A stretch of 64,000 nucleotides of DNA from Pelomonas sp. BJYL3 (GTDB lineage Bacteria > Pseudomonadota > Gammaproteobacteria > Burkholderiales > Burkholderiaceae_C), in NCBI RefSeq assembly GCF_027257975.1, contig NZ_JANZKX010000002.1:558001-622000 (forward strand), written 5' to 3'. The translations under genes were made by a program, and so were the position numbers. The notes beneath the pieces were generated by a model, which ran no database searches, was not told where the DNA came from, and was given only the letters and a program-made list of their open reading frames with translations. This document shows, piece after piece, positions 43,213 to 51,048 of this stretch; positions within the stretch are counted from its first letter, which is position 1; every line of letters starts with the position of its first letter.

Positions 43213-44157
43213 GTGATGGTCCGGCCCCATCGCTTCCAGCCCAATCCGCAGACCCGGGCCGACAACCGATTCCAGCAGCCCGTCCCGCCCTCCGCCACCC
43301 TGGGCCTGCAGGCCCGCCTCGAGTTCGATGCCGCCGTGGACCGGCTGCGCGAGGCGGGCGTTGCCGTGCATGTCTTTGACGAGCCCAGCGCGCCCGAGGC
43401 ACCGCCGACGCCCGATGCCGTCTTTCCCAACAACTGGTTCTCCACCCATGCCGACGGCCGCGTGGTGCTGTACCCCATGGCCGCGCCCAACCGGCGCCTG
43501 GAGCGGCGGGCGGACATCCTGGCCTTCCTCGGCCGCCACTACCAGCTGCGCCAGCTGCTGGACCTCAGCCCGCTGGAGCGACAGGGCCTGCACCTCGAGG
43601 GCACGGGCGCCCTGGTGCTGGACCACGTGCAGCGCCTTGCCTACATGGGGCGCTCCGGCCGCGCGCATGAGGCCGCGCTGCAGCGCTTCTGCGCACTGAT
43701 GCGCTACCGCCCCCATGCCTTCGACACGGCCGATGCGCAGGGCGTGCCCGTCTATCACAGCAATGTGCTGATGCATGTGGGCACGGCCTACGCCGCGGCG
43801 GGCCTGGCCCTGCTGCCAAAGGACGCCGAGCGCCGCCGCCTGCGTGCCCGGCTGCAATCGGGCGGGCGGCAGCTGATCGAGCTGGGTGCTGAGCAGGTCC
43901 TTGCCTTTGCCGGCAATGCCCTGGAGCTGGCGACGCCCCGCGGGCCGCTGCTGGCCCTGTCCGGTACCGCCCTGGACGCCCTGGATGCGCGCCAGAAGAA
44001 GGTCTTCGCGGGGCTGGGCCTGCGCCTGCTGCCCTTGGCGGTGCCCACCCTCGAGCAGGCCGGCGGCTCGGTGCGCTGCATGCTGGCGGGGGTGCATCTG
44101 CCGGCACGTCCGGCGAGGGCGCTCGCCGCATGGCCGCAGGCACTGGACGCGCAGTGA
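43213..44157 (+). CDS. ctlX: Citrulline utilization hydrolase-type protein (arginine-deiminase fold)
   Basis: About 314 residues from GTG 43213 (ATG 43216 next). Guanidino-modifying fold: FPNNWFSTHADG, the LHLEGTGALVLDH Asp/Glu segment, HSNVLMHVGTA with the catalytic His, and GGSVRCMLAG with the catalytic Cys near the C-terminus. In-frame codons just upstream read QAPHAV before a TGA, the usual start of CtlX-type proteins, so the original start and a few residues are missing. No ribosome site. The catalytic core is complete, but expression is uncertain. Confidence 0.85.
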   Translation: MMVRPHRFQPNPQTRADNRFQQPVPPSATLGLQARLEFDAAVDRLREAGVAVHVFDEPSAPEAPPTPDAVFPNNWFSTHADGRVVLYPMAAPNRRLERRADILAFLGRHYQLRQLLDLSPLERQGLHLEGTGALVLDHVQRLAYMGRSGRAHEAALQRFCALMRYRPHAFDTADAQGVPVYHSNVLMHVGTAYAAAGLALLPKDAERRRLRARLQSGGRQLIELGAEQVLAFAGNALELATPRGPLLALSGTALDALDARQKKVFAGLGLRLLPLAVPTLEQAGGSVRCMLAGVHLPARPARALAAWPQALDAQ

Positions 44158-44502
44158 GCGGGTGCGGCGCCTTGCCCGACCGCTTCGCGGTGCGGTGCCA
44201 GGTCAACTGTGCGTTGCTCGCCCAACTGGTTGGGGGGTGGTTTCATGTAGGACGGCAGGCATTGCGGAGGACACCTGTAAACCCTTGCAGGTTGCCCTGC
44301 CCATTCATGTAAAGCCCGGGTGGCCTAGGGACTTGCCCCATGGGGTGCCTGGGAAGCCGACGCATAGCCTTCGATCCGCTTTGCGCAATGCCAGGCTGCC
44401 GGGCTGCCCCGGACACGACGCAGTGCTTCCGATGTGCGGAGGGCCCTGCAGCCGCGGTCGCAGGCGCAAGGTTTTCACACTCAACCTAGCAAGGAGAACC
44501 TC
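44158..44502 (+). other. Long 5' region of the lanthipeptide locus
   Basis: 345 bases without a supported gene. It holds a sigma-70-like promoter (44285-44313), the direct repeat TTCATGTA at 44242-44249 and 44304-44311 (the second overlapping the -10), and the palindrome CCCCATGGGG near 44336-44345 within a leader of about 180 bases. Confidence 0.45.
44285..44313 (+). promoter_or_regulatory. Candidate sigma-70 promoter for the lanthipeptide genes
   Basis: TTGCAG, 17-base spacer, TGTAAA. It predicts a 5' leader of about 180 bases before the precursor gene. Confidence 0.45.
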
Positions 44503-44691
44503 ATGAACGAGATCACCAGCGCACTGCAGCAAGTCGAGCAATGGATGCAAGACGAGTCCGCAGCCAACCCCGCCGGCCCGCTGTTCTCCAGCGGCGTGTA
44601 CAGCGAAGCCGAAATCGCCGGCGACGTGTCGCGTGAAACCCGCCAGGGCTGCTCCAGCTGCTCCGGCTCGCGCACCATCATGTGCTGCTGA
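44503..44691 (+). CDS. Class II lanthipeptide precursor (LanA)
   Basis: 62 residues with an AAGGAG ribosome site. The leader is acidic and helical (about residues 1-40), with the end EAEIAG at 35-40 the likeliest cleavage motif (A-G in place of the usual G-G/G-A). The probable core, from residue 41, carries seven Ser/Thr and four Cys: SRETRQGCSSCSGSRTIMCC closes the peptide, with Cys at 50, 53, 61 and 62. It immediately precedes lanM, the strongest evidence. Ring pattern cannot be told from sequence. The cleavage site is inferred and other sites, for example after QG, are possible. Confidence 0.85.
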   Translation: MNEITSALQQVEQWMQDESAANPAGPLFSSGVYSEAEIAGDVSRETRQGCSSCSGSRTIMCC

Positions 44692-44705
44692 TGCACTGAT
44701 GTGCA

Positions 44706-44758
44706 GACGCCTGGGGTTCCGGTCCCTGGCGTCGAGACCCCGCCCAGGTGGCGGGGTC
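44706..44758 (+). other. Twin hairpins between lanA and lanM
   Basis: First stem GACGCC / GGCGTC (44706-44711 with 44728-44733). Second stem, nine perfect pairs GACCCCGCC / GGCGGGGTC (44736-44744 with 44750-44758) with a five-base loop. No T-run follows. Such structures after a precursor gene usually cause partial termination or protect the 3' end, giving more LanA than LanM. Confidence 0.65.
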
Positions 44759-44824
44759 CGGCCGGCAGTCCTGGCCTTCTGCCCAGGCGTCTCCCCTGAT
44801 CCGCCCGACCTGATCCGCTCGCCC

Positions 44825-47758
44825 ATGCAGTCCACGCCCCCCGCTGAATCCGTCGCCGCCCGCGAGCATCCCGACCACGACGCGCACGCCGAGCCGGCCG
44901 AGCCGGCCGAGCCGGACTTCGTCCCCTGCCTGGTCCACTGGATTGCTCCCGCCCTTGCCGCGCTCACGCGTGCGCTGCAGGACCTGGACAGCCTCGAGGC
45001 AGCCGAGCGCTCTCTCATTGCCGACGCCTTGCGTCAGCACCTCGAACAACAGCTCCATGCCAAGCTCGCCCGCGTGCTGGTCATGGATATCAACGCCGCC
45101 CGCGTGCAGGGCCGGCTGAGCGCGGCGAGTTCTGCGGCGCGCTGGGAGGAATACCTGGCCCAGGCCGCCACCCCGCAGCACTGGGCGAGGCTGGGCGAGC
45201 AATACCCGAGCCTGCTGGCCCGCGTTGGCTGGATCGTGGACCACAAGGTGCGCTTCGTGGCCACCCTGGCGCGCCATTTCGCCGAAGACAGGGCCTTGCT
45301 CGGCACGCTGCTGGGCCAGGCGCCCGGTGCGCTGCAGGCCCTGGAGCTGGCCAAGGGCGACAGCCACAACGGTGGCGCAGGCGTGGCCCTGCTGCGCCTC
45401 GAGGGCGGCACCGCGGCCTACAAGCCCCGGCCCCTCAACACCGATCAGGCCCTGGCCGACTTCCTGCAGCAGGTGCTGGCCGACGAGCCCGTCGCGCAGC
45501 GCGTGCGCGTGCCCGCGGTGCTGGACCGCGGCGACCACGGCTGGGGCGAGTTCATCGTCCACCGCCATGCCGTCGATGAGCGGGAGCTGCGGCTGTTCTA
45601 CCGCAACATGGGCCACTGGCTGGCCATCATGCGGCTGCTGGGTGGCACTGATTTCCATGGCGAGAACGTCATCGCCCAGGGCTGCCTGCCCATCATCGTG
45701 GACTGCGAGACCCTCTTCTGCCCGCGCACCGAGATCAAGCCCTCCGGCTTCGGCAACGCGGTGGACAAGGCCGACGAGGCCATGTTCGCCTCCCTCATGA
45801 AGACGGGCCTGCTGCCCGGCCGCGGCGCCTCGCTGGGCTGGCGCGGCGTGGACAACTCCGGCATGGGCAGCATCCGCCAGCAGCAGCCCAAGATCAGCGT
45901 CCCCGCCCTCGTGGACGGCGGCCGGGACACCGTGCGCATCGGCCAGGCCCTGGTCGAGGTGGAGATCGCCAAGAACCACCCTTGCGAGACGCCCTCGCTG
46001 GAGCGCTACTGGGGCCAGGTGCTGGAGGGTTATGACAGCCTCACCGCACGCCTGATCCAGCTGCATGCGCAGGGCCGCCTGGCGCCGCTGCTGCAGCCCT
46101 TCAAGCCCTGCCACATGCGCCTCGTGCCGCGGGCGACGGAGGTCTATGCCGAGCTGATCCGCATGCTCTGGCACCCGATCTCCCTGGCCGACGAGGTACA
46201 GGCCCGCCAGCGCGCTGCGGGCCTGCTGGCGCGCGCGGCGGCGCTGATCTCGACCACGCCCTCCGACCCCGTGGTCATCCAGGCCGAGATCGACGACATG
46301 CTGCGCGGCGACGTGCCCTACTTCCACAGCACCGCCGGCCATGGCCGCATGTCGGGGCCCGGCGGCACGCAGTGGCTGCCCGAGAACGACCTCGTCGAGC
46401 AATGCCTGCAGGCCTGGAGCGCCTCGGACCAGCGCCTGGACCGCGACATCATCAAGGCCTCCCTGCTGAGCGCCTACCTCAACGACGGCTGGATGCCCAC
46501 CGAGCGGTCCTTCCGCGTGCACACGGCCAGCCAGCAGGACCTCGAGCCGCGGCGCCAGGCCTGGGCCCGCCGCCTGCTCGTGCCCTTCCTGCAGAACGGC
46601 ATCCGCGGCGATGACGGCACGGTCACCTGGATCTCCCCCACGCTGGGCCCCACGGGCTGGGGCATCCAGGCCATCGACCAGAACCTCTACGGCGGCAATG
46701 CCGGCGTGGCCCTGCTGCTGGCGGCCTACCAGCGCGAGGTGGCCCAGGGCCGCGCCCTGCCGCTGCCCGGTGCCGACGAACTGCTGGCCGCGGTGATCGA
46801 GACCATGAGGAAGGGCCTGTACCGCCAGGTCGAGCTGCAGCGCTCGGCCGGCAAGGTGCGGCCGCACCAGCCGGGCGGCTACCTGGGCATCGGTTCGCAG
46901 ATCTGGGGCTGGCTGCAGCTGGAGGCCCTGGGCGCCGTCGGGGCCGAGGCCGTCGAGTGCGCCGCGCTGACGGCGGAGTACATGCAGGGCTCGCTGGAGG
47001 CCGACCAGACCTATGACCTGCTGGCCGGCGCGGCCGGGGCGATCCCGGGCCTGCTGCTGCTGCACCGGCGCACGCAGCAGGCCGCGCACCTCGCGCTGGC
47101 CATCGCAGCGGGGGACCATCTGCTGAAGGCCGCGAAGCGCGAAGGCGGCCGGGCCTGCTGGCCCACCGCGGCGGCCCCCGAGGGCATGGGCGGCTTCGGT
47201 CACGGCAGCTGCGGCATCGGCTGGGCCCTGCTGAAGCTGCATGAGGCCTGCGGCGAACCTCGCTTCCTGCAAGGCGCGCAGGAGGCGCTGGCCTTCGAGG
47301 AGTCCCTGTTCGACGAGGCGGACCAGAACTGGCGCGACCTGCGCCATCTGGACGGCGTCAACTGCTCCACGGCCTGGTGCCACGGCGCCGTGGGCAACGG
47401 CCTGGGCTACCTGGACTTCACGGCCCTGATCGGCGAGGACCGGGTGCGCGAGCGCGTGCACCAGGCCGCCGGGGCGACCTTCCGTCAGGGCATGGGCTGG
47501 AACCACTGCGCCTGCCATGGCGACGCCAGCGCCCTGGAGCTGCTGCAGGAAGCGGCCGACCGCGGCCTGGCACCGCCGGGTGTCAGCCGAGACGCGGAGC
47601 TGGCGCGCCTGCTGGCCAGCCTGGAGCAGCACGGCAGCCGTTGTGGCATCACCAATGACGTCTTCTCGCCCTCGCTGATGACGGGGCCGGGCGGCATCGC
47701 CTACCAGCTGCTGCGCGCGCACCCGCAGGCGCGGCTGCCGTCCTTCGTGCGGCCATGA
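44825..47758 (+). CDS. lanM: Class II lanthipeptide synthetase LanM
   Basis: 977 residues from the ATG at 44825; ATG 44699 would add 42 residues of low-quality sequence. N-terminal dehydratase domain: YKPRPLN near 199, GGTDFHGENVIAQ near 274 and IIVDCETLF just after, the active-site set that phosphorylates and eliminates Ser/Thr. C-terminal LanC-like cyclase: the zinc ligands are the Cys in STAWCHGAVG (near 849) and the Cys-His in HCACHGDAS (near 895). Both modules look complete. It should dehydrate and cyclise the upstream precursor. Its stop overlaps the exporter start by ATGA. Confidence 0.95.
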   Translation: MQSTPPAESVAAREHPDHDAHAEPAEPAEPDFVPCLVHWIAPALAALTRALQDLDSLEAAERSLIADALRQHLEQQLHAKLARVLVMDINAARVQGRLSAASSAARWEEYLAQAATPQHWARLGEQYPSLLARVGWIVDHKVRFVATLARHFAEDRALLGTLLGQAPGALQALELAKGDSHNGGAGVALLRLEGGTAAYKPRPLNTDQALADFLQQVLADEPVAQRVRVPAVLDRGDHGWGEFIVHRHAVDERELRLFYRNMGHWLAIMRLLGGTDFHGENVIAQGCLPIIVDCETLFCPRTEIKPSGFGNAVDKADEAMFASLMKTGLLPGRGASLGWRGVDNSGMGSIRQQQPKISVPALVDGGRDTVRIGQALVEVEIAKNHPCETPSLERYWGQVLEGYDSLTARLIQLHAQGRLAPLLQPFKPCHMRLVPRATEVYAELIRMLWHPISLADEVQARQRAAGLLARAAALISTTPSDPVVIQAEIDDMLRGDVPYFHSTAGHGRMSGPGGTQWLPENDLVEQCLQAWSASDQRLDRDIIKASLLSAYLNDGWMPTERSFRVHTASQQDLEPRRQAWARRLLVPFLQNGIRGDDGTVTWISPTLGPTGWGIQAIDQNLYGGNAGVALLLAAYQREVAQGRALPLPGADELLAAVIETMRKGLYRQVELQRSAGKVRPHQPGGYLGIGSQIWGWLQLEALGAVGAEAVECAALTAEYMQGSLEADQTYDLLAGAAGAIPGLLLLHRRTQQAAHLALAIAAGDHLLKAAKREGGRACWPTAAAPEGMGGFGHGSCGIGWALLKLHEACGEPRFLQGAQEALAFEESLFDEADQNWRDLRHLDGVNCSTAWCHGAVGNGLGYLDFTALIGEDRVRERVHQAAGATFRQGMGWNHCACHGDASALELLQEAADRGLAPPGVSRDAELARLLASLEQHGSRCGITNDVFSPSLMTGPGGIAYQLLRAHPQARLPSFVRP

Positions 47759-49764
47759 GCCGGGCACCGGACCGGGCGGCTGAGGGCGCCTCGCAGGCGC
47801 CGGGCGACGCCGAGGTCTTCATCGCCACCGACAACCCCTATTGGGAGTTGGGCGCCTCCGAGGCCCTGCTGAGCAGCTTTCCCGCCTTCTTCCGGCGCGT
47901 GGCGGGTGCGGCGCCGCCTGTCGTCGCGCTGATGCGGCGGGTCGGCCTGGCTGCCGTCCTCGGCGTGCTGGGCTGCCAGCTGCTGGCCGGCCTTCTGTGG
48001 GCCTACACCCTGGTGCTGGGGGGGCGGCTCCTGCAGTCCCTGCTCGATGCGCATGGGCTGGCTCAGTCCGTGAGCCAGCAGCTGGCGCCGCACACGGGCG
48101 TCGCCCTGGGCCTGGGCGCGGCCTTCCTGGGCAAGCTGGCGCTGGAGGCCCTGGCCGAGGTGCTGCGCGCCCGGCTCAGCCCCGCCCTGGTGGCCACGGC
48201 CGAGCAGGACTTCGTCGACGCCTGCCTGCGTGCACCGCTGCAGCGTTTCGATGACCCGGAGTTCGTCGACCGCATGCACCGTGCCCGCGACCGCGGCCTG
48301 CACTATGTCGAGAGCATCGTCGACCAGACCGTGGCGCTGAGCAGCGCGGGCATCGGCCTGGTCTCAGGCGCGGTGGCCCTGCTGGTGCTGCATCCGGCCC
48401 TGCTGCCCGTGCTGCTGCTGTGCCTGCTGCCCCAGGCCTGGACGGCCATCCGCGCCCTGCTGTGCGTGCAGAGCCATTGGGACCAGAGCATCGCCCTGTC
48501 CCGCCAGGGCTGGATGCTGCAGGAGCTGGCCAGCCAGCCCGAGCCTGCCGCCGAGCTGCGGGCGCTGCAGATGGAGCCGCTGCTCAGCGAGCGCCACCGG
48601 CGCGTGACCGAGGCCCTGCGCACCAGCCTGGAACGGCTGAAGGCCGGCATCGCCCGCACGCGGGCCTGGGGCGCCGTCGTGAGCGGCCTGGCCCAGGGGC
48701 TGGCCTACCTCTGGCTGGTGATGCTGGTGGGCCGCGGCAGCCTGGCGCCGGCGCTGGCCGGCGCCGCGGCACTGGGCCTGCGCACCAGCCTGGAGGCCGT
48801 GCGCCAGCTGGTCCATGCCCTGGACCAGATGATGGAGAAGGCGCTGTACCTGGACGACTACTTCGGCTTTGTCGGCCAGGCGCCTGCCGCCCTGCCCGCA
48901 CAGGCCGGCGCGCCCGAGCTGCCGGCGCCCGAACGCATCACCCTGCAGGGCGTGGGCTTTGCCTACGCGGGCGCCCCGGACCGGCCGGTGCTGCACGACA
49001 TCCACCTGACGCTGCAGCGCGGCACGACCATCGCCCTGGTGGGTGAGAACGGCTCGGGCAAGTCCACGCTGGCCAAGCTGCTGGCCGGCCTTTACGAGCC
49101 CAGCGCCGGGCGCATGGACTGGGACGGCGTGGACTGCCGCAGCCTCGACGCCCGCCAGCGCCTGGCCCACACCCTCATCGTGCCCCAGCACCCGCTGCGC
49201 TGGCCCTACAGCGCTGCGCAGAACGTGCGGCTGGGGCGCGTGGGTCTGGCCGCCGGCGGTGATGACGACCCCCGCTTCGCGCAGGCCGTTCGCGAGGCCG
49301 AGGCCGACCAGGTGGCTGCTCAGCTGCCGCAAGGCTGGCAGACGCTGCTCAACCGCCTGTTCAAGGGCGGCATCGAGCTGTCCTCCGGCCAGTGGCAGCG
49401 CCTGGCCGTGGCCCGTGGCCTCTACCGCCAGGCCGCCCTGACCATCTGGGACGAGCCCACCGCACCCCTGGACGCCCGTGCCGAGGCCGCCGTCTTCGCG
49501 AGCCTGGCCAGGCTGCGCCGCGACCGCATGGTGGTGCTGATCACCCACCGCCTGGCCAGTGCGCAGTCAGCGGACCGGATCTACTTCCTGAAGGCCGGGC
49601 GCATCACCGAGTCCGGCACGCATGAGGAACTGATGGCGCTGGGCGGCGGCTATGCGCAGCTGCATGCGCTGCAGGCGCGGCTGGCCGAGCGCATGGAGGC
49701 GGACGCTGCAGGAACGGCCGCGGAGGCAGTGGCGGCGGCGCCGCGTGAATCCGAGGCCGCGTGA
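47755..49764 (+). CDS. ABC exporter (fused permease-ATPase) of the lanthipeptide locus
   Basis: 669 residues. Residues 1-60 are soluble and lack the C39 peptidase Cys and His, so this is not a bifunctional LanT. A six-helix ABC type-I membrane domain follows, then the nucleotide-binding domain: Walker A VGENGSGKST near 430, signature LSSGQWQR near 541, Walker B LTIWDEPTAPLD near 560, switch His THRLASAQ. It should export the modified peptide with or without its leader; leader removal needs another protease. A role in self-protection is also possible. Confidence 0.92.
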   Translation: MSRAPDRAAEGASQAPGDAEVFIATDNPYWELGASEALLSSFPAFFRRVAGAAPPVVALMRRVGLAAVLGVLGCQLLAGLLWAYTLVLGGRLLQSLLDAHGLAQSVSQQLAPHTGVALGLGAAFLGKLALEALAEVLRARLSPALVATAEQDFVDACLRAPLQRFDDPEFVDRMHRARDRGLHYVESIVDQTVALSSAGIGLVSGAVALLVLHPALLPVLLLCLLPQAWTAIRALLCVQSHWDQSIALSRQGWMLQELASQPEPAAELRALQMEPLLSERHRRVTEALRTSLERLKAGIARTRAWGAVVSGLAQGLAYLWLVMLVGRGSLAPALAGAAALGLRTSLEAVRQLVHALDQMMEKALYLDDYFGFVGQAPAALPAQAGAPELPAPERITLQGVGFAYAGAPDRPVLHDIHLTLQRGTTIALVGENGSGKSTLAKLLAGLYEPSAGRMDWDGVDCRSLDARQRLAHTLIVPQHPLRWPYSAAQNVRLGRVGLAAGGDDDPRFAQAVREAEADQVAAQLPQGWQTLLNRLFKGGIELSSGQWQRLAVARGLYRQAALTIWDEPTAPLDARAEAAVFASLARLRRDRMVVLITHRLASAQSADRIYFLKAGRITESGTHEELMALGGGYAQLHALQARLAERMEADAAGTAAEAVAAAPRESEAA

Positions 49765-49782
49765 TCCGGCCAGGGCAGGACG

Positions 49783-51048
49783 CTAGCGCCGCCCGAACAT
49801 CATCTGCCGCGCCAGCGCCTTCTTGACCGGGGGCAGCGCCTGCAGCGCCGCCAGGCCCAGGCCCCGCAGGGCGGGCAGGGCGGGCCAGCGCCAGCTGAAG
49901 CTGCGGGCCAGGAAGTCGGTGCCGAGGATGGTGCTCCAGCGGTCCGGCCCGCGCTGCCACTGCACGCGCTGCAGGGCCCGGGGCACGGCGGCGGCCAGGG
50001 GGGAGCCGGGCTGGCGGGCCTGCGCCTGGACCAGCGCCTCGACCAGCGCGTAGGCATCGCGCAGGCCCAGGTTCAGGCCCTGGCCGGCCACCGGGTGCAG
50101 GGTCTGGGCCGCGTTGCCGATGCGCACCAGGCGCCCCTCCACGAGGCTGCGCTCGGCATTGAGGCCCAGCGGGAAGCACTTCAGCGGGCTGATGCCGCGC
50201 AGGGGCGGCAGGCCCGGCGGCAGCTGCTGGTTGATCACGGTGAGGCGCTGGGCATCCGTCAGGCCGGCCACCTCGTCCTCGGCCTGCGGCAGGCACCAGA
50301 CCAGGGCCGCGCGGTGCGGCTGCTGGGGGGTGGGTGGCAGGGGCAGCAGGGCCAGGGGACCGTTGCGGGTGAAGCGCTCGTAGGCCACGCCCGGCGGCGA
50401 GGCCGGGTCCAGGGTCACGGTGCCCACCCAGGCGTTCTGCTGGTAGTCGTGGCTGAGGCTCTTGCGGGACTGCTCCGCGAAGACGCCGCCCTCGGCGATC
50501 ACGACCAGGTCGAAGCGATCGGCGATGCCTGCGTCCACCTCCATCTCGTCACCCACGGCGCGGATGCCGGCCACCGGCTGGCCGAAGCGGGTGAGGGCCT
50601 GGGCCGGCCGCGCCTCGCACTGGCGCAGCCAGGCCGCCTGCATGGGCGCCACCAGCTGCCCGTAGGCCAGCACGGCGCCCAGGCGCTCCTCGCCCTGCTC
50701 ACGGGCATGGATGCTCACCACCGGCTGCCCCGCCTCGCCGAAGACCGGGTGCCTCAGCGTGGGCGGCGCCTGGCTGACCTGGACCTGCAGGATGGACTGT
50801 GCCGCTGCCTCGTTCCAGGCCTGCAGGCGCTGCAGCAGCTGGACGCTGCCCAGGGAGAGGGCCAGGGTGCGGGGGTCGTCGCTGATGTCCTTCTCCAGCG
50901 GGCGGGCGTCGAAGAGCTGGACCTGGGCCGCGGGCAGGCGCCGCGCGGCCAGCAGGGCGAGGCCCAGGCCCGCCGGGCCCGCGCCGACGATGGCGATGCG
51001 CAGGGGATCGGCAGGGGAGGGCGGGGCGGCGGGGGCGTCGGTACGCAT
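49783..51048 (-). CDS. UbiH/COQ6-family FAD-dependent monooxygenase
   Basis: 421 residues from the ATG at 51048. The N-terminal FAD-binding motif is IAIVGAGPAGLGLALLA near 19, the GD-type motif is LVRIGNAAQTLHPVAGQGLN near 309 (a common UbiH/VisC signature), and the central DG-type region includes LVVIAEGG. Probably a ubiquinone-biosynthesis hydroxylase, although the ring position acted on cannot be told. The usual GD motif is replaced by GN (GNAAQTLHP), as in UbiI/VisC-like members. Convergent with the exporter; no link to the lanthipeptide is implied. Confidence 0.88.
   Translation of the reverse strand: MRTDAPAAPPSPADPLRIAIVGAGPAGLGLALLAARRLPAAQVQLFDARPLEKDISDDPRTLALSLGSVQLLQRLQAWNEAAAQSILQVQVSQAPPTLRHPVFGEAGQPVVSIHAREQGEERLGAVLAYGQLVAPMQAAWLRQCEARPAQALTRFGQPVAGIRAVGDEMEVDAGIADRFDLVVIAEGGVFAEQSRKSLSHDYQQNAWVGTVTLDPASPPGVAYERFTRNGPLALLPLPPTPQQPHRAALVWCLPQAEDEVAGLTDAQRLTVINQQLPPGLPPLRGISPLKCFPLGLNAERSLVEGRLVRIGNAAQTLHPVAGQGLNLGLRDAYALVEALVQAQARQPGSPLAAAVPRALQRVQWQRGPDRWSTILGTDFLARSFSWRWPALPALRGLGLAALQALPPVKKALARQMMFGRR

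Follow-up and report, generated by a model that had tools for sequence, protein, structure and literature searches.

Within a 64,000-nucleotide stretch of the genome of Pelomonas sp. BJYL3 (the window; contig NZ_JANZKX010000002.1, positions 558,001 to 622,000 of the forward strand), genes for a lanthipeptide precursor, a lanthipeptide synthetase (LanM) and an ATP-binding cassette (ABC) exporter constitute a real locus above chance level, preceded by a conserved dyad at 44273-44292. With a probability of about 0.8, the sequences are best explained by a minimal class II lanthipeptide operon that would be controlled by a LuxR-type regulator at this dyad, its product being exported without a C39 peptidase and freed of its leader by an unlinked protease. 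The dyad matters more than the features recognised in a first-pass annotation, which was made from the letters of this DNA and described a coupled class II lanthipeptide cluster starting at 44285. The genome (5.24 Mb in 28 contigs, with the window in contig C12) belongs to the Roseateles/Mitsuaria group. Its closest named relatives at the locus are Mitsuaria sp. WAJ17 (94-95% LanM identity) and Roseateles subflavus (84-85%), and these three compared genomes are referred to as the genus.

A DUF6229 precursor with LanM and a C39-less exporter

Three genes follow one another on the plus strand, namely lanA (44503-44691; 62 amino acids), lanM (44825-47758; 977 amino acids) and the exporter gene (47755-49764; 669 amino acids). 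The precursor with four cysteines (Cys50, 53, 61 and 62), the complete LanM, the ABC exporter and the class II assignment in a betaproteobacterium, all claimed in the first-pass annotation, were borne out by the protein families found. The start of the locus has to be moved, since lanA begins at 44503 and 44285 lies inside the dyad. The coupling stood in part: the exporter ATG overlaps the lanM stop as ATGA, whereas lanA ends 133 nt before lanM, so that visible coupling is restricted to lanM and the exporter gene.

The locus exceeds chance because the precursor matched PF19740 (DUF6229) in Pfam with 57.5 bits against a cut-off of 25 (E 1.3e-15), because the cassette is kept in both congeners at the LanM identities given above, and because an iterated precursor hidden Markov model (HMM) matched 0 of 31,401 shuffled open reading frames (ORFs) at E<=1. 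No NCBIfam model matched the precursor at E<=1. An AGGAG-like ribosome site, AGCAAGGAGAACCTC, precedes the lanA ATG, and the C-terminal part of the peptide reads CSSCSGSRTIMCC. Neither GG nor GA occurs between residues 32 and 62, and A39-G40, which had been read as the leader end, is not kept in relatives and is no feature of the DUF6229 family.

LanM joins a DUF4135 dehydratase and a LanC-like cyclase in one protein, the class II architecture, with matches to PF13575 (E 1.6e-90), PF05147 (E 1.7e-41) and TIGR03897 (580.7 bits; cut-off 304). Alignment with CylM and LicM2 and with four relatives points to K200, D276, H278, N281, D293 and E295 as dehydratase residues and to C852, C897 and H898 as ligands of zinc, the roles being those known from CylM. 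The dehydratase residues from D276 to E295 and the three ligands line up with both reference enzymes and are invariant in the four relatives. The exporter matched PF00005 (E 1.8e-28), and no C39 peptidase domain (PF03412) was detected at E<=1 in it or in the 10 related exporters scanned out of 30 available ORFs (11/11 in total). The locus therefore has neither the C39 exporter nor the GG/GA site before the core that characterise a LanT-type lantibiotic.

The precursor core is identical across the genus, and the two substitutions, N22S relative to WAJ17 and A20S relative to R. subflavus, both fall in the leader. Silent codon changes number 6 and 7, respectively, those in the C-terminal part lying at codon 47 in WAJ17 and at codons 44 and 58 in R. 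subflavus. The rate of amino acid-changing substitution (dN) in lanA is 0.007 in both comparisons, against a silent rate (dS) of 0.16 (WAJ17) and 0.23 (R. subflavus); for lanM, dN is 0.026 and 0.098 and dS 0.27 and 0.45. The resulting dN/dS, ~0.1-0.2 for lanM, is lower still for lanA, whose peptide is under purifying selection.

In the proposed pathway, LanM would bind the conserved DUF6229 leader (NPAGPLF..G.Y.EAEI), phosphorylate and then eliminate Ser/Thr residues in the C-terminal part of the lanA peptide, and use its LanC-like zinc domain to form thioether rings, four at most, at Cys50, 53, 61 and 62, these being the general reactions of LanM enzymes. The C39-less ABC protein would then export the peptide and an unlinked protease would cut its leader, while a LuxR-type regulator bound at 44273-44292 would probably govern expression of the operon.

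Relatives of the precursor and its predicted rings

The DUF6229 proteins studied in PMC9576775 (Nat Commun 2022) are stated in its accessible text to be lanthipeptide precursors; there the product of a Dyella sp. 333MFSha cluster carries four dehydrations and three rings (Thr6-Cys11, Cys8-Ser14 and Thr12-Cys23), its orthologues are named rhodanocins, and the C39 protease LahT150 failed to cut the peptide. Among 72 class II clusters of Lysobacter with 27 unique precursors, 21 of the 27 belong to DUF6229, according to the accessible part of a 2024 preprint (PMC11451712). The rarity in Gram-negative bacteria implied by the first-pass annotation is not supported in view of these reports and of the occurrence of the core scaffold in three phyla. 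Because DUF6229 proteins have already been reported as class II precursors, the lanA peptide is classified by its sequence as a new member of this published family.

To delimit the family, an alignment of five LanMs was searched against genome contigs of 84,980 species, which yielded 66 loci. The iterated precursor HMM recognised a DUF6229-like precursor in 62 of them; once long frames were searched, 65 of the 66 had one, the exception being L085, a partial 28% match. Three distant LanM loci, L017-L019, gave no such precursor. These 65 loci span Pseudomonadota, Myxococcota and Actinomycetota. In the reverse direction, LanM directly adjoined the precursor in 24/24 loci found through DUF6229 in samples of the order, the phylum and one other family (window's own excluded; three repeat LanM-found loci, and L115 and L126 come from a single locus with tandem precursors). 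DUF6229 is rare, occurring in 3/300 genomes of the order and 3/398 of the phylum, both counts including the window's genome, and in 14/198 genomes of one gammaproteobacterial-type family.

A LanM tree of 66 rows was built by a quick method with support from the SH-like approximate likelihood ratio test (SH-aLRT) only, after L081 was dropped for in-frame stops and L084 and L085 were left out as partial. The three Roseateles/Mitsuaria proteins formed one clade (support 100) on a long branch (0.87), nested in a 25-row clade of Proteobacteria and Myxococcota (99). In a Streptomyces/Amycolatopsis branch (L053, L055, L058, L059, L061-L064, L068, L069, L071 and L078), the second Cys of the core motif is replaced by Pro (CSSPSGSHGSWCC type), and this form is nearly invariant between species.

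A CC pair closes 65 of the 67 distinct precursors or stands one residue short of the end, and C-x2,3-C-[ST]-x-S is present in 51, CGTxC in 33 and CSSC in 12. The commonest core type, CGTACSGSRTxxCC, is found in Luteimonas, Pyxidicoccus, Nonomuraea and Comamonas, and it shares the [ST]GS core and the terminal CC with the window peptide, which has CSSC in place of CGTAC. Many of these loci encode an ABC exporter ~40-47% identical to that of the window and C39-less where scanned. Homologues of the window exporter (>190 bits) were present in 27 of the 66 LanM loci, some of which are cut by contig ends. In 18 of those 27, tblastn placed a FAD_binding_4/BBE flavoprotein homologue just 3' of the exporter, a family call made from two homologues scanned against Pfam; it was found neither at the window locus nor in its congeners. 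The flavoprotein gene lies, for instance, at L023:14751-16190, and it also follows the exporter in 17 further LanM loci and in L016, across Actinomycetota, Myxococcota and Pseudomonadota. It may provide a tailoring step in DUF6229-type loci.

The window motif C50-x-x-C53-S54-x-S56 fits rhodanocin positions 8, 11, 12 (Ser here) and 14, whereas position 6 corresponds to Gln48 and the fourth Cys is extra. The rhodanocin positions were taken from the published text on its rings, the peptide sequence itself not being in the text consulted. Given this positional fit, Cys50-Ser56, closed in the reverse direction, and Ser54 with a terminal Cys (Cys61/62) are the first rings to expect and, judged by position, most likely. 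Two further rings, for a total of four, could pair Cys53 with Thr46 or Ser43 and a terminal Cys with Thr58. The likeness to rhodanocin, LanII of Dyella sp. 333MFSha (PMC9576775, accessible text), comprises a DUF6229 precursor, a LanM and the C-x2-C-[ST]-x-S positions; in the window peptide, by contrast, neither Ser nor Thr stands two residues ahead of the first Cys, and the host is a betaproteobacterium. The Lysobacter peptides likewise are DUF6229 precursors in class II clusters (PMC11451712, accessible text), but in those read the Cys/Ser/Thr spacing differs from that of the window peptide, and no lux-like dyad at <=2 mismatches was found 5' of the two Lysobacter precursors scanned.

No description of the exact core was found, the search in print having covered the related string CGTACSGS, which occurred in no paper, and no paper was found that joins a lanthipeptide with Roseateles or Mitsuaria (subscription papers lay outside both searches). 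The peptide is a new member, as the first-pass annotation had held plausible, within a family that is already published. Rhodanocin has, to our knowledge, the one solved ring pattern of the DUF6229 family, and the window peptide adds a member with four cysteines and a CC end. Lanthipeptide families are usually confined to a single phylum, according to the accessible text of PMC7268733, which makes a scaffold spread over three phyla unusual.

That the product is a signal or an envelope-active peptide instead of an antibiotic is a possibility we take seriously without favouring it. The core scaffold is common to several phyla, and the AspN-cut Dyella product had weak activity, 126 uM on K. pneumoniae; that weakness may, however, stem from a wrong N-terminus, as its authors note (PMC9576775, accessible text).

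The upstream dyad and its candidate LuxR regulator

The dyad ACCTGTAAACCCTTGCAGGT lies on the plus strand at 44273-44292, 210 bp 5' of the precursor ATG. It was identified by pattern match, and alignment of the upstream regions shows it conserved throughout the genus; in WAJ17 it reads ACCTGTAATGTCTTACAGGT, with perfectly matching arms. In form it resembles a lux box. The strict pattern ACCTGTA-N6-TRCAGGT has 1 match in the window, where 0.00 are expected (100 shuffles), and a looser pattern returned the same 1 match against 0.34 expected. Across the genus, the strict dyad occurs at this operon in each genome, and its sole other occurrence is in WAJ17, at 50 bp 5' of an Autoind_bind-domain gene; the reversed control gave 0. 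When <=2 mismatches to ACCTGTAA-N4-TTRCAGGT were allowed, 12 places were found, divided among the window's genome (4), WAJ17 (5) and R. subflavus (3), versus 1 for the reversed control.

Seven of these 12 places precede operons for ribosomally synthesized and post-translationally modified peptides (RiPPs), 2 precede LuxR genes and 3 lie near other genes, namely a KAS III gene and two further gene pairs. Three of the seven belong to the present lanthipeptide operon, once per genome. In contig C22 of the window's genome, a dyad with 1 mismatch stands 348 bp 5' of the LanB gene of a class I lanthipeptide cluster (L168, G000:C22:768000-780000) that encodes LanB (PF04738, E 1.4e-105), LanC, a tryptophan halogenase and three Cys-containing peptides with VAGG/VAGA leaders; its counterpart in WAJ17 precedes what is, judged from just the first codons read, an identical LanB start. 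Another copy in the window's genome lies 51 bp 5' of the ATP-grasp peptide maturase gene of a graspetide-type operon (L167, G000:C23:160000-172000); the maturase matched PF21068 above cut-off and TIGR04187 below it (E 2.7e-49; 168 of the required 350 bits). A small peptide gene follows this maturase, reading ARWVSTVTTDSGWGPNPFCPCPDRDFIS after NSVAG. In R. subflavus, a dyad with 2 mismatches is located 245 bp 5' of genes for a XyeA-like precursor (E 8e-4, below cut-off) and a radical SAM protein (L169, G442:C18:333000-345000).

The two LuxR-family genes behind a dyad both encode an Autoind_bind domain; one belongs to WAJ17 (0 mismatches) and the other, with 2 mismatches at a distance of 53 bp, to the window's genome. 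All four places in the latter genome thus lie before RiPP operons or, once, before a LuxR-family gene. Dyads of the right length were found near both LuxR genes and putative targets, as in a lux-box regulon. In L151 and L158, LuxR-family genes with the dyad ~50 bp 5', Cys replaces the Asp that contacts acyl-homoserine lactone (AHL), D70 in TraR numbering. The dyad as a general feature of DUF6229 loci was considered and rejected, as 3/68 precursor regions contained it at <=2 mismatches; these three entries were the two congeners, one genome being counted twice, and L036, L042, L059 and the DUF6229-found loci lay outside the scan.

Over the family as a whole, 150 genomes were searched for the dyad and 9 contained it at <=1 mismatch. 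Four of the seven places outside the genus (G017, G059, G045 and G103; four genera) are 27-67 bp 5' of a LuxR gene of one type. A LuxR of the window's genome (C12:108106-108825) is 60-64% identical to three of these proteins by BLAST and is kept in the congeners with 100% and 96% identity. In the helix-turn-helix, the four outside-genus LuxRs share 48-54 of 62 residues with it, and ERTAVxH is kept. The best regulator candidate would be this protein, whose relatives from four other genera are encoded behind promoters that contain the dyad.

In each of the four loci, a gene for a short GG-leader peptide and then two large genes come after luxR. All four peptides carry Trp as the last residue or close to it (LLPKGGWGQR, VTSGPNGGW, APGRRW and GIPVGRW), and the large genes encode HlyD and a C39 ABC exporter in both loci scanned, G059 and G017. 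A second dyad with 2-3 mismatches lies 5' of each of the four peptide genes, at 31-104 bp depending on the start codon. The background at <=3 mismatches was 8 places in 1.51 Mb, two of them this operon's own in the congeners. The gene after the candidate luxR in the window's genome encodes a GG-leader peptide of 66 aa in which DPSPKGTW is repeated four times, and HlyD/PCAT genes are not adjacent. A recurrent cassette (L177 and L179-L182) comprises a divergent gene for a small protein with a WDWV stretch (unseen in L182), luxR, a gene for a GG-leader peptide in which Trp is terminal or nearly so, and HlyD plus C39 exporter genes, the latter scanned in L179 and L182 only and non-adjacent in the window's genus.

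Several findings weigh against the proposed explanation. A number of further upstream blocks equal the dyad in their conservation across the three species. Outside the genus, the dyad was found in 7 places and the reversed control in 6 genomes, a frequency not above control, so that this part of the evidence rests on location. At <=2 mismatches, the dyad was absent 5' of 65 DUF6229 entries outside the genus, with two 3-mismatch matches. Within the genus, the promoter of the candidate luxR contains only two 4-mismatch dyads (2/3 genomes read), and homologues of the acyl-HSL synthase LuxI number 2, 1 and 2 per genus genome, so ordinary AHL control is possible. Rhodanocin has three Cys, whereas the window peptide has four with a terminal CC. 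Finally, no recurrent peptidase was recognised in an all-against-all comparison of the neighbours in the 66 LanM loci, of which the 25 largest gene clusters were inspected and part of them scanned against Pfam; M28, M13 and M48 peptidases each occurred in single loci.

With LuxI homologues in 3/3 genomes, the dyad could be a classical quorum-sensing site at which a LuxI/LuxR pair of the genome makes and senses AHL and switches on the lanthipeptide. The AHL-contact columns are, in TraR numbering, W57, Y61, D70, P71 and W85. Six LuxR homologues were found in the window's genome, three with both W57 and Y61 (C12 at 307 kb, C1 and C25 at 52 kb) and three without (C12 at 108 kb, C12 at 442 kb and C25 at 321 kb); those at C12 307 kb and C1 adjoin luxI and have all five residues, which favours this alternative. 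Yet no dyad at <=2 mismatches was detected in five luxI loci, with one 3-mismatch match near the C12 luxI/luxR. The candidate at C12:108106 has F, A, D, P and W in these columns and so departs from the AHL type. In the dyad-linked LuxRs, F or Y stands at W57 and A, Y, F or L at Y61; of the six with a dyad in the promoter, 6/6 are without W57 and 5/6 without Y61. Classical AHL control is therefore regarded as unlikely. The resemblance to LuxR/lux-box quorum sensing of the Vibrio fischeri type lies in the 20-bp dyad, its ACCTGTA/T(A/G)CAGGT arms and LuxR promoters that carry it; the differences are the missing canonical AHL-contact residues, putative genus targets that are mostly RiPP operons, and cassettes in which genes for a GG-leader peptide and an exporter take the place of luxI. 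In its accessible text, a survey of clusters linked to luxR names a lanthipeptide once among cluster types (PMC5872303), and MalR is a different LuxR (PMC7042699, accessible text).

Alternatively, the dyad could serve an unrelated repressor or activator, its link with LuxR being coincidental. The control-level count outside the genus, the equally conserved upstream blocks and the degenerate dyads at the candidate luxR would fit such a protein. Against it, WAJ17's only second exact site sits 50 bp 5' of a LuxR-family gene, dyads precede the related LuxRs of four other genera with a second copy (2-3 mismatches) before the adjacent peptide gene, and the <=3-mismatch background is just 8 places in 1.51 Mb, which together make this alternative distinctly improbable. 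That the locus is decayed or silent and yields no product, as the failure to find a linked protease gene or the BBE-type flavoprotein gene seen in 18/66 relatives might suggest, is scarcely credible given frames open in three species, the dN/dS values above and LanM catalytic residues that are intact in alignments.

Flanking features and a wider regulatory reading

A GC-rich hairpin with a 9-bp stem lies between lanA and lanM (44736-44758, plus strand) and possibly acts as a transcript divider or stabiliser. The fold of 44689-44824 had a z of -1.83, with 6/200 shuffles as good; being weakly better than shuffles, the hairpin was dropped as evidence. Scans for sigma-70 promoters and intrinsic terminators over 44100-49900 found none, and Rfam gave nothing at gathering threshold in 44100-44900. 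The cassette is flanked 5' by genes for a dimethylarginine-hydrolase-like protein and an Lrp/AsnC regulator and 3' by genes for a FAD_binding_3 protein and an aldo/keto reductase, called by a crude GC-position caller that sometimes picked the antisense frame and served for leads only. It occupies the same position, between CutA and the FAD_binding_3 gene, in both congeners, and the hydrolase gene was not found there in either. Where relatives lack the cassette, the genes beside ubiH gave no further clue.

A LuxR-controlled regulon of several RiPP operons is the boldest inference from these sequences. In its furthest form, a tentative proposal more daring than probable, an AHL-independent LuxR of Roseateles/Mitsuaria-type bacteria would co-ordinate several unrelated RiPP pathways through ACCTGTAA-N4-TTRCAGGT, its ligand being a pheromone made as a short ribosomal peptide that has a GG leader and a terminal or near-terminal Trp. 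The pathways would comprise the class II lanthipeptide, the class I lanthipeptide with halogenase, a graspetide and a XyeA-like triceptide. In the window's genome the pheromone would derive from the four (D/E)PSPKGTW-type repeats, and the relatives would encode it beside luxR with a HlyD/C39-PCAT exporter. If this is true, the regulatory reading would explain how silent RiPP clusters are switched on in these Burkholderiales and would offer one lever for several RiPP pathways, and a LuxR receptor would be paired not with an acyl-homoserine lactone but with a peptide that is secreted.

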